Assembly (NCBI GenBank): GCA_902596605.1
Contig: CACJUU010000013.1
Span: 22,501-59,075, forward strand
Reading direction: 5' to 3'
Length of the DNA stretch: 36,575 nt
From: an uncultured Alphaproteobacteria bacterium
GTDB lineage: Bacteria > Pseudomonadota > Alphaproteobacteria > Rhodobacterales > Rhodobacteraceae
The position numbers and the translations under genes were made by a program. The notes below the pieces were generated by a model. The model was not told where the DNA came from and ran no database searches. It saw only the letters and a program-made list of their open reading frames with translations. Below are positions 21,427 through 36,575 of the stretch, piece after piece. How positions within the stretch are numbered: position 1 is the stretch's first letter; every line of letters begins with the position of its first letter.

Positions 21427-22338
21427 TTATTCCGATGCTAATACTTTAAACTCAAAACCGCCAAGACCATATCTGGGAATATAGTGAGTTCCCCCATTTT
21501 TTGTGGTTTCCATAGAAAAGGTATCTTCCAATCTAAACCCAACATCCAAATTAGATGTTTTTGGCGTGATACTTACAGCAGTATTGAATTTTTGTATTCC
21601 CAAAAAATAACTCGCTGTGCCAAAAGAACCATAGTTACCTGGCGTCCCCGTATTTATTGTCTCATCGGCTTTAAGTAAATAAACAGACCAAGTTGTCGAC
21701 GCCGTTGTTCCTGTTTCATAATTATCAAAACGGCCTCCACTAGCAGTACTCCACACCGCGTTTTGGTTGGCAGTATGTGTCCCTATAGTTGTCGGTTCGT
21801 CAGCGCCACATTCAGCTATCCACGTAGATCTTTGAGCGAAACTCAAACCTACGGTCGTCGTTTCACCATCTAAAGTCCAGCACCACTCTCCAGTTCCTGT
21901 TTTACCGGACCTCGCTGGTGAGAATTTCTTTTTCACACTAAAGCCTATATTATTTTTTATCAATATCGCAGCATGAGTGTAATTTCCTTCTGTAATAGTG
22001 ACATCGTTCATGAGGTTAGCTGATGATGTAGTCGTAATTTTTTTCGACTCACCTGTACTAGATGAGAATAAGGATGAGCACGCTGTCCTAAAGTTGGCAA
22101 TAGTTGGTTCTGAGGTGCATAAGCCAATAAAATGCAAAATAATAGTCATACTATCGGGCGTTAGATTACATGCGGTTGATGCTCCACTGGAGTCGTCCGT
22201 GTAAGTGATAGTACCATCTGCATTTGTGTAATTGCTACATAGAAGTTGGGCATGTCCTTTATCGAAAATGAAAAACCCTGATAAAAAAATTAATACAAAG
22301 ATAAACTTTAAAAGAGAAATTCTTGGATTAATAGCCAC
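21427..22338 (-). CDS. Secreted protein of unknown function, partner of the barrel gene
   Basis: Not assigned to a named family. The 303-residue product starts at GTG 22338 (AGGAG 9 nt upstream), 11 bp inside the end of the barrel gene and in a different frame. A signal peptide is clear: hydrophobic 10-25, then KGHA before QLL at about 31. The mature part is Ser/Thr/Gly-rich, with segments such as HFIGLCTSEP, ITEGNYTHAAIL and, at the end, YIPRYGLGGFEFKV, reminiscent of surface or fibre-like proteins in marine bacteria, from memory. At least six Cys suggest disulfides. Overlap with the barrel gene implies joint expression; it may be the surface component that replaces a fused passenger (inference). 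Confidence 0.75.
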   Translation of the reverse strand: MAINPRISLLKFIFVLIFLSGFFIFDKGHAQLLCSNYTNADGTITYTDDSSGASTACNLTPDSMTIILHFIGLCTSEPTIANFRTACSSLFSSSTGESKKITTTSSANLMNDVTITEGNYTHAAILIKNNIGFSVKKKFSPARSGKTGTGEWCWTLDGETTTVGLSFAQRSTWIAECGADEPTTIGTHTANQNAVWSTASGGRFDNYETGTTASTTWSVYLLKADETINTGTPGNYGSFGTASYFLGIQKFNTAVSITPKTSNLDVGFRLEDTFSMETTKNGGTHYIPRYGLGGFEFKVLASE

Positions 22339-23290
22339 TTACCGTCACTCCTAGTTTGATTGATTTTTTCATAATTCTATTCTCACGCTGAACAGGTTTA
22401 TACAATTCTGACCTTACTGACTTTAATTTGAGGGTAAACTCTCTATCAGCTTTACTATCTACAGTCGATGCTTTAGCGCCAAGAGGAATAGAGTAGTTAA
22501 GTGCAATTACGCCCACAGCATCCTTTGATTCCTTTTTTTGTTGTGCAACAGTGAGTGTTAGATTTTTTGCTATTTCTGCAGAAATACCTAATTCTTCGTT
22601 GTTTGTTTTGTAACCACTATTGTCTGTCCAATAGCTCTTTTCAAAGTAGATATCAGCATAGGGTATTTTACCAGTAAACTTGACGTCATAACCATCGAGT
22701 GCCGTTTCATCGACACCCTTGTAGCTAATTGTTCCTGATTGAGCATCATATGAATTGGCTCTTACATCAAGTAGCGAAGTAATAAGCTCGGCTCCAAAAC
22801 CAAGACGTCTGTGTGCGGAGTCTAATTCATAATCAAAAAATGTGTTGGCTCCTAATATAGTCGTATCAGCATTGAAAATATAGCGCGCACCAATACCAAT
22901 ATTCACAGTATTACGCCCATCAAAATTAGATAGTGAGGTCTGATTGAAAAAAAACGTATTTGGTGTTTCGTACAATCTATAAACCGCCATTAACTCAGTA
23001 AGAGCAGAGGAACCATTTCTTAGCCCAAGGCTGTCACTGCCAATGTTGAGATTTAGGTGTGTAAAGTTGGTGCTACTTTCTATTTGTCGTTCTGTCTTAT
23101 CAATCTCAGAATTAATAAGCCCAAAAGAATAGCGAGATAGGTAACTGCGGATCGTATTACCCTGGTTTTCGCTTTGCGCTAATTCTTTTGCTGAGCTGGC
23201 TATAGTTGCTGCAGCAGAGTTGCTAACCTCTGCTACACCTTGGGAAAATATGAAAACAAAAATACAAATAGTATGAACGATAATCTTCAT
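22328..23290 (-). CDS. Inverse autotransporter (intimin/invasin-type) beta-domain protein without passenger
   Basis: The 320-residue protein has a signal peptide (about 1-20) and a helical linker. The outer-membrane barrel domain is like that of intimin and invasin: VNIGIGARYIF, LGANTFFDYELDSAHRRLGFG, and LDGYDVKFTGKIP followed by alternating strands. The C-terminal RSELYKPVQRENRIMKKS matches the plug/linker end of such barrels. In known members this linker leads into Ig-like passenger domains; here the ORF stops a few residues later at 22328. The start has AAGG 6 nt upstream. The next gene, with its own signal peptide, overlaps by 11 bp. Confidence 0.82.
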   Translation of the reverse strand: MKIIVHTICIFVFIFSQGVAEVSNSAAATIASSAKELAQSENQGNTIRSYLSRYSFGLINSEIDKTERQIESSTNFTHLNLNIGSDSLGLRNGSSALTELMAVYRLYETPNTFFFNQTSLSNFDGRNTVNIGIGARYIFNADTTILGANTFFDYELDSAHRRLGFGAELITSLLDVRANSYDAQSGTISYKGVDETALDGYDVKFTGKIPYADIYFEKSYWTDNSGYKTNNEELGISAEIAKNLTLTVAQQKKESKDAVGVIALNYSIPLGAKASTVDSKADREFTLKLKSVRSELYKPVQRENRIMKKSIKLGVTVSGY

Positions 23291-35275: not shown

Positions 35276-36575
35276 TTAAGATTTCTGAATCCAGATGTAG
35301 CTATCTGCTTCCTGTGTAGGAATAACTGTAAGTGGCTCGCAATCTTTTTCTACTTCTTTCGGTTGTAGTCCAACCCATTTTCTCACTTCACCTGATCTAA
35401 AACAAAACTCACTATTATGATAAGGACATAAGATAGTTCCTTCATCCGTTATCTGACCTATGTCCAATGGTAAATTCATATGAGGACATAAATTCTCAAT
35501 AGCAAAGATTCCTTCCTGATTTATGAGAAGAAATTCTTTTCCATTATATTCAAACTTTTTCTTTTCTCCGACATCGAGCTCACTGATAGGCAAAGTCCTT
35601 ATCCAAGTGTTGCCATCAATCTCTTTTACTTTAATATCAACGTGATCTATTAACTTATCTTTGTTTAGACCGCTAACCTCATGCAAGGTAATTAAGTTAC
35701 TAGATCCCCTTAATTTCAATCGCACAAAATTTCTTACATCAACAGCGTCTTTAATTCTTTCATAAGCGACATCGGAAATAAGAAAACGTGTTCCCGCCTC
35801 TTTATTTATAGCTTCAATTCTACTGGCGATATTTACAGTGTCTCCAATTATGGTAAATTTTTTGTCTTCGCCAAAACCAACAGAACCTAGAATGGCTTCA
35901 CCATAATGAACACCTATTCGTATATCAAAATCTCTACCGTAAGCTTGAGACAGATAATCCTTAAATTCGTCCATAGCTTGTAGCATTTCTAACGCTGTAT
36001 TTGCTGCTCTAAGTGTCTGTTGTCTTGAGTCTTTGAGACCAAAGATAGCCAGAATTGCATCACCAATATAATTATTTATCTCCCCACCATTTTTAATGAT
36101 GATTTCGCGCATTATAGAGATGTATCTATTTAAAATGAATATCACATCATAAGCAGCAAGCGCCTCGGAAAAAGGGGTAAAACCCTTTATATCGCAAAAC
36201 ATTACCGTCAAATTTCTTATAGTACCCACGGACTCTAGTTTCGTATCGGACAATTTATTTGAATTGCTCAAATCCCTCTTGTCGAGGAGAAGCCTTCTGT
36301 ACGAAACAGGTCCACTTATTGTGGTCTGGCAGGCTAGTCTTATATTGTTCGGAAAGGAAAGCTTATCAGATAGCTTTCTCTCAGGATCTGATCTCGGAGA
36401 ACAATTTTCTAATCCTTCTGTAATTTCAACTCTGCAAGTAGAGCATTTTCCAGTACCTCCGCAAGCACTTAAGTGTGATATATTATTTCTAATTGATGCT
36501 GTGAGTATTGTTTCATTTACACCTACCTCTATTTTTTTCTTGTCAGGTTGTACTAGTGCAGAAAAGAGATCTCCA
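35276..36575 (-). CDS. Ferredoxin-cyclase-Rieske fusion: redox-linked class III nucleotide cyclase, 5' part cut by window edge
   Basis: About 432 residues are visible and the ORF is open at 36575; a TTG at 36271 is internal. First comes a [2Fe-2S] ferredoxin domain with CGGTGKCSTC (CX5CX2C) and a fourth Cys in RLACQT. Then a class III cyclase: VMFCDIKGFTPFSE (metal Asp), YIGDAILAIFG (second Asp), and IIGDTVNIASRIE (Asn and Arg), all catalytic residues kept. Last is a Rieske domain: ICPH-like LCPHMNLPL, 17 residues between CPH and CPYH, then FCFRSGEVRKW. It would make cAMP (or cGMP) under control of iron-sulfur redox state (inference). Ferredoxin-cyclase fusions are known; the added Rieske domain seems unusual. 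Confidence 0.88.
   Translation of the reverse strand, partial: GDLFSALVQPDKKKIEVGVNETILTASIRNNISHLSACGGTGKCSTCRVEITEGLENCSPRSDPERKLSDKLSFPNNIRLACQTTISGPVSYRRLLLDKRDLSNSNKLSDTKLESVGTIRNLTVMFCDIKGFTPFSEALAAYDVIFILNRYISIMREIIIKNGGEINNYIGDAILAIFGLKDSRQQTLRAANTALEMLQAMDEFKDYLSQAYGRDFDIRIGVHYGEAILGSVGFGEDKKFTIIGDTVNIASRIEAINKEAGTRFLISDVAYERIKDAVDVRNFVRLKLRGSSNLITLHEVSGLNKDKLIDHVDIKVKEIDGNTWIRTLPISELDVGEKKKFEYNGKEFLLINQEGIFAIENLCPHMNLPLDIGQITDEGTILCPYHNSEFCFRSGEVRKWVGLQPKEVEKDCEPLTVIPTQEADSYIWIQKS

Follow-up and report, generated by a model that had tools for sequence, protein, structure and literature searches.

A conserved class III nucleotide cyclase predicted to combine three types of [2Fe-2S] site in an uncultured alphaproteobacterium

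The window, i.e. the whole stretch of 36,575 nucleotides analysed here, corresponds to bases 22501-59075 of a contig of 59,075 bases and closes with a single open reading frame of 432 amino acids on the minus strand (35276-36574), which runs off the window. Since the window edge is also the contig end, the 5' end of this gene is cut, in agreement with a previous sequence-only reading of this DNA that had placed the gene start beyond the window. The following features were assigned:

35276-36574, minus strand: multi-cluster cyclase gene, 432 codons plus stop; the 5' end (CDGSH blocks) lies past the contig end, with complete copies elsewhere
36299-36565, minus strand: Fer2 [2Fe-2S] ferredoxin-type domain, C-x5-C-x2-C-x34-C (PF00111, 1.9e-10; solved ferredoxins; Cys columns)
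36221-36325, minus strand: Fer2-to-cyclase linker with motif [RK]RL[VIL][LV]D, the proposed transducer (from conservation; overlaps the drawn Fer2 end)
35696-36220, minus strand: class III nucleotide cyclase domain with D128, D172, N168, T241, N248 and R252 (PF00211, 1.1e-25; alignment with CyaB, 3r5g)
35375-35605, minus strand: C-terminal Rieske [2Fe-2S] domain, C-x-H plus C-x2-H (PF00355, 1.1e-14; solved Rieske ferredoxins)

In the 432-residue frame, Pfam places Fer2 at residues 9-86, Guanylate_cyc at 119-293 and Rieske at 324-400, all above the curated cut-offs. When compared separately with solved structures, the Fer2 piece matched [2Fe-2S] ferredoxins (7wff, 1.6e-9; 1i7h, 2.2e-7) and NqrF at 0.005, and the Rieske piece matched the Rieske ferredoxins 8jng (2e-9) and 3dqy (8.1e-7). 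All four cysteine ligands of Fer2 are present (C38, C44, C47, C82) and, barring one ambiguous base, are kept in 28 of 28 rows of the clade of CDGSH-carrying homologues described below; these 28 rows represent 17 distinct records, window included, as for instance the gene of L052 is identical to that of L013. Alignment with solved Rieske ferredoxins likewise identified the C-x-H and C-x2-H pairs as C363/H365 and C383/H386. Hence, the sequence-only reading was right in describing Fer2, class III cyclase and Rieske domains in one frame, with both Cys-His pairs of the latter. Its further claim, that Fe-S clusters of more than one type are joined here to a cyclase, finds support and even fell short, as complete copies of the gene add CDGSH sites.

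These complete copies open with a block of about 80 residues that holds two CDGSH motifs and is present once or twice, and the full domain order, found in the genus as well as in two genomes of another family, is CDGSH(2 or 4)-Fer2-cyclase-Rieske. Against solved tandem CISDs, the CDGSH block aligned over the module length with 3tbn (1.7e-22) and human CISD3 (3.1e-17). From the presence of its code in PMC3174974 and its length, 3tbn would be MmCISD, the type 6 CISD of that paper. Two CDGSH motifs per module, as in type 6 CISDs, occur in the complete copies; the window copy lacks this part owing to the contig end. The complete protein is thereby predicted to contain three [2Fe-2S] ligand types and four to six clusters. 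A simple hydropathy count detected no TM-like segment, and thus no CyaC-type anchor, in four whole proteins of the clade. Four CDGSH motifs are present in 8 of the 12 further genus genome copies and in 7 of 13 named GTDB contigs, which mostly duplicate them; the remainder have two. Within seven of the four-motif copies, the paired blocks show 90-98% DNA identity across 67 codons, and the offset from the first block to the second is 82 residues in six of them and 100 residues in L045; this differing spacing suggests that the block was duplicated on at least two separate occasions. The window contig stops directly after the CDGSH repeat, which probably broke the assembly. A zf-CDGSH family search of the window genome (G000) for the missing piece did not find it elsewhere in the same assembly and returned one match only, a stand-alone protein of 72 amino acids (L039, from 1477, G000:C7), which has apparently lost its second motif.

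Among 61 genomes searched (the window's own plus 60 relatives), 12 other genomes of the genus gave matches at E < 1e-200 that are 83-98% identical, so that the protein occurs in 13 of 22 genus genomes, the window's own included. Eleven of these 12 copies read through the end of the Rieske domain, and in the remaining one (L021) the contig stops short of the Rieske ligands. The cyclase was not found in the other nine of the 22, of which two are 90-91% complete and the others only 58-87%, so some of these absences may be gaps. A scan of GTDB contigs yielded 13 named contigs with the protein, eleven of which bear AG isolate titles ('uncultured Alphaproteobacteria'; three of these eleven begin with MAG), one TMED198 and one NAT185 ('Rhodobacteraceae bacterium'). 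The AG names we take to denote marine single-cell genomes, and TMED presumably is likewise a marine collection. Eleven of the 13 contigs repeat genus genomes already counted, leaving L048 and L049 as two additional assemblies. Outside the genus, two of the ten f29 family genomes encode the four-part protein, which is 59-60% identical there and has one CDGSH pair. In wider samples it appeared in 2 of 385 genomes of the class (the window's own and G294), in 1 of 390 of the order and in 1 of 398 of the phylum (each time the window's own). The threshold for presence was E 1e-50 or 1e-60, mostly three candidates were scored per genome, and the samples overlap and are drawn from larger groups. Two matches considered as CDGSH-type copies, in G842 and G827, were rejected, as they start at query residues 100 and 118 with two and three internal stops, respectively, and a transporter gene rather than a CDGSH block lies upstream. 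Three pattern matches in viral contigs were all unrelated.

Three of 87 family f179 genomes (L078, L092, L093; L091 is the same protein as L078) encode a Fer2-cyclase-Rieske protein without CDGSH, as do plasmids of Rhizobium etli 8C-3 and R. gallicum R602sp (L094, L095), and Pfam confirmed all three domains in all five proteins. The two Rhizobium plasmids head a list of 345 matching plasmid records, in none of which the match spans as much as 80% of the query. As it is present in named, complete public records, the Fer2-cyclase-Rieske order, which had been thought possibly new, is not.

The catalytic residues expected of a class III cyclase were located as the metal-binding aspartates D128 and D172 and the transition-state residues N248 and R252, all invariant in the 28 rows of the clade. 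Base recognition differs. It involves a lysine together with Asp or Thr (for the role of Lys/Asp, see PMC4215837), and in all 28 rows the substrate-specifying lysine of canonical adenylate cyclases is replaced by asparagine (N168), with the second substrate residue kept as threonine (T241). The earlier description of the catalytic residues as complete therefore holds for metal binding and transition-state stabilization and fails for base recognition. The substrate site was placed by alignment to 3r5g (CyaB, Lys), 2w01 (Glu) and 1wc1 (Lys), of which 2w01 is, we assume, the guanylyl cyclase Cya2. Of the membrane-type rows, 28 of 29 retain the lysine, as do 15 of the 17 further cyclases in the data set; other soluble relatives have K, N, D or L at this site. 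The plain Fer2-cyclases of family f188 and of a Hymenobacter plasmid (L079-L081, L083, L085, L086, L089, L097) mostly have aspartate there, and 7 of 14 plain Fer2-cyclase rows carry alanine as second substrate residue, giving unusual base-recognition pairs. The product of the window enzyme is probably cAMP, and the asparagine would leave cGMP or a relaxed specificity possible.

In L058-L077, the sole pair usable across the four domains as most other values are saturated, all four domains are under purifying selection, with dN/dS values of 0.05-0.14. Between families, the cyclase is the best conserved domain (71% identity) and the Rieske domain the least conserved of the four (50-51% identity; dN/dS 0.27-0.40 in two comparisons). 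Of the three linkers, that between Fer2 and cyclase is much the best conserved: in a within-genus pair (L010-L020) it is 86% identical, the others 25% and 43%, and in a between-family pair (L010-L058) it is 54% identical, the others 25% and 30%. These figures stem from one pair per level and from short linkers of 8-28 residues. All 28 clade rows and all six Fer2-cyclase-Rieske rows carry the linker motif [RK]RL[VIL][LV]D, as do 11 of 14 Fer2-cyclase rows, the other three of which have variants of it; none of the 29 membrane-type rows has the motif. Judged from the aligned rows, it is a mark of the soluble forms. An AlphaFold2 model of L047, computed with 15 other rows, reached a mean pLDDT of 52.4 and is unusable for the domain arrangement.

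The ancestry of the Fer2-cyclase region was addressed by a maximum-likelihood tree of 64 distinct rows, 16 of them from the CDGSH clade, with L049 (ambiguous bases) and 17 loci lacking Fer2 left out. The 16 CDGSH rows fall on one side of a branch with support of 100/100, and the five Fer2-cyclase-Rieske rows group together at 100/97. Both form a joint group with the plain Fer2-cyclase L059 at 100/96, in which L059 joins the five at only 96/75. A branch supported at 100/100 separates the soluble forms (35 rows) from the membrane type (29 rows), and Fer2-cyclase is the core common to both. The tree program flags long branches, so the deeper nodes deserve less trust than the clade itself. The simplest history would comprise a single Rieske fusion (lost in L059, or else gained twice) followed by a single CDGSH fusion.

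Downstream of the gene, a methyltransferase starts 14 bp from the cyclase stop, exactly as first noted. The proposal that it may belong to the same unit could not be maintained, however, as it adjoins the cyclase in only 8 of 16 distinct neighbourhoods and is absent beside L041, L045, L048, L049, L050, L051, L058 and L077. As compared, the count was 9 of 17, but L014 and L040 are one record, and the downstream span covered only about 400 bases for L048 and about 500 bases for L077. No fixed partner gene was found among the 16 distinct neighbourhoods. In eight of them, a small protein (L040 7578-7976 and equivalents; DUF2846, 6.5e-5, below the cut-off) lies directly upstream of the cyclase, a position beyond the reach of the window. 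In family f29 (L058 1492-3000, L077 1492-3000), the cyclase is located between genes for IMP dehydrogenase and GMP synthase, identified by Pfam for L058 (G294) and by reading for L077, an arrangement that may be coincidental or may be relevant to GTP as substrate. The small genome of the window (G000, 1.97 Mb) has 17 class III cyclase domain matches, all above the cut-off, and seven cNMP-binding matches, six of them above it, which renders cNMP signalling in this organism plausible. One further cyclase of this genome, outside the window, is a 581-residue membrane-type Fer2-cyclase of CyaC-like order with the substrate lysine kept (L098 353-2095, G000:C8), and offers a natural comparison for the soluble enzyme within the same genome. 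Elsewhere in the window, at 22331-23290, an inverse autotransporter beta-domain (IAT_beta, 7.3e-32) is followed by a 303-residue frame without Pfam match.

Domains, ligands, conservation, domain order and ancestry are observed here; a coupling of the clusters to cyclic nucleotide synthesis is plausible. From the anatomy of the protein and the analogy with quinone-regulated CyaC, we lean, with modest confidence, towards a soluble multi-cluster Fe-S sensor cyclase responding to redox or cluster state, in which Fer2 would be the proximal switch and CDGSH and Rieske would serve as tethered inputs. Cluster binding, electron flow, switching and its direction, as well as the product, are inferred. 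The cyclase is expected to act as a homodimer, and the Fer2 cluster beside the catalytic domain would most likely act as this switch: depending on whether the cluster is oxidised, reduced or absent, the linker and, in turn, the cyclase dimer may change, comparable to the switching of CyaC by its diheme anchor. The loosely tethered CDGSH and Rieske clusters, with other expected potentials and sensitivities, could pass electrons to or from Fer2 or, alternatively, signal that clusters have been lost when iron is scarce or NO or oxidants are present. Fer2 is favoured as the switch because of the common Fer2-cyclase core, the best-conserved linker and the linker motif of the soluble forms. Counting against a sensor function are the patchy presence in the genus, the lack of a fixed partner gene, the replaced lysine, the weak conservation of the Rieske domain and the low pLDDT of the model.

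Other explanations have to be weighed against this redox-sensor reading. That adjacent genes were fused by a frameshift or assembly error might be suspected, since the window copy stops at a contig end, and a stop or gap in a second assembly had been named at the outset as the sign of such an artefact. The fusion proved genuine: the same order recurs in the 12 other genus genomes (11 of them through the whole Rieske domain), in L048 and L049 and in the two f29 genomes, and Fer2-cyclase-Rieske is collinear in complete Rhizobium plasmids. These copies refute an artefact, the probability of which is negligible. It is also quite improbable that the cyclase domain is poor or inactive and the protein mainly an electron-transfer scaffold. 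The asparagine in place of the substrate lysine throughout the clade, at a site variable among other soluble relatives, would fit such a role, but the metal aspartates and the catalytic Asn and Arg are invariant, and the cyclase is the very domain that is best conserved between families.

A closer competitor, although we regard it as unlikely, dispenses with an electron path altogether and assumes that iron shortage, NO or oxidants remove or damage a labile CDGSH (or Rieske) cluster and that the cyclase is thereby destabilised or activated. According to PMC10937110, the tandem CDGSH protein CISD3 (-31 mV) loses its clusters upon iron chelation and binds NO in its reduced form. A sensor of cluster occupancy would also agree with the varying CDGSH motif number (2 to 4) and the weakly conserved CDGSH-Fer2 and cyclase-Rieske linkers. 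However, it leaves unexplained why Rieske and Fer2 clusters are jointly retained and why the Fer2-cyclase core is common with redox-regulated CyaC-like proteins.

If the redox-sensor reading is true, the protein would be a soluble second-messenger enzyme that reads the Fe-S state directly, and Fer2, being common with CyaC-like membrane cyclases, would be indicated as a common redox switch. Three [2Fe-2S] types per chain would further make a natural test case of whether clusters of different potential can act as a graded sensor. More tentatively, and with some doubt on our part, a single cytosolic enzyme uniting the three classical [2Fe-2S] coordination types (3Cys-1His, 4Cys and 2Cys-2His) might read redox poise, iron supply and NO together. 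Its four to six clusters would then form a graded array feeding one cyclic-nucleotide output, and the fixed Lys-to-Asn exchange would alter base recognition.

A multi-cluster cyclase of this kind was not found described among the open-access titles and abstract openings listed. The terms ferredoxin, Rieske and 2Fe-2S do not occur in the accessible part of a survey of actinobacterial cyclases (PMC2447327), nor does 'cyclase' occur in the main text of PMC3174974, in which CISD fusions to a glutamate synthase domain (type 5) and to DUF1271 (type 7) are reported. The type 6 CISDs MmCISD and human CISD3 consist of the same tandem CDGSH module, but are stand-alone proteins. CyaC-type membrane cyclases carry Fer2 directly before the class III cyclase, as in the window protein, yet differ in having a hydrophobic anchor instead of CDGSH, no Rieske domain, a substrate lysine in 28 of 29 rows, another linker (motif in none of 29) and a place on the separate side of the tree, split off at 100/100. 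Their label as six-TM proteins is an analogy, as hydropathy indicates three to six segments before the matched core, and four in the window genome's own copy. The characterised case, CyaC of Sinorhizobium meliloti, is redox-regulated: the redox state of its diheme anchor switches this quinone-regulated enzyme (PMC10463352), and in the text of that paper on CyaC, 'ferredoxin' and '2Fe-2S' are absent. In an annotated cyaC product encoded on an S. meliloti plasmid, which may or may not be the characterised CyaC (SMc01818), Fer2 lies between the anchor and the cyclase domain. The soluble Fer2-cyclases L059, Hymenobacter L097 and those of family f188 have the same Fer2-cyclase core and a related linker, but neither CDGSH nor Rieske. 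Nearest on the tree, together with L059, are the R. etli, R. gallicum and f179 proteins, which possess the same three-domain order and linker motif, but differ by lacking the CDGSH block, by an identity of only about 37%, by a longer Rieske domain with an insertion between the ligand pairs, and by N, K or L at the substrate site. The window protein is a genuine, conserved extension of the ferredoxin-linked class III cyclases, in which one chain is predicted to hold three types of [2Fe-2S] site.
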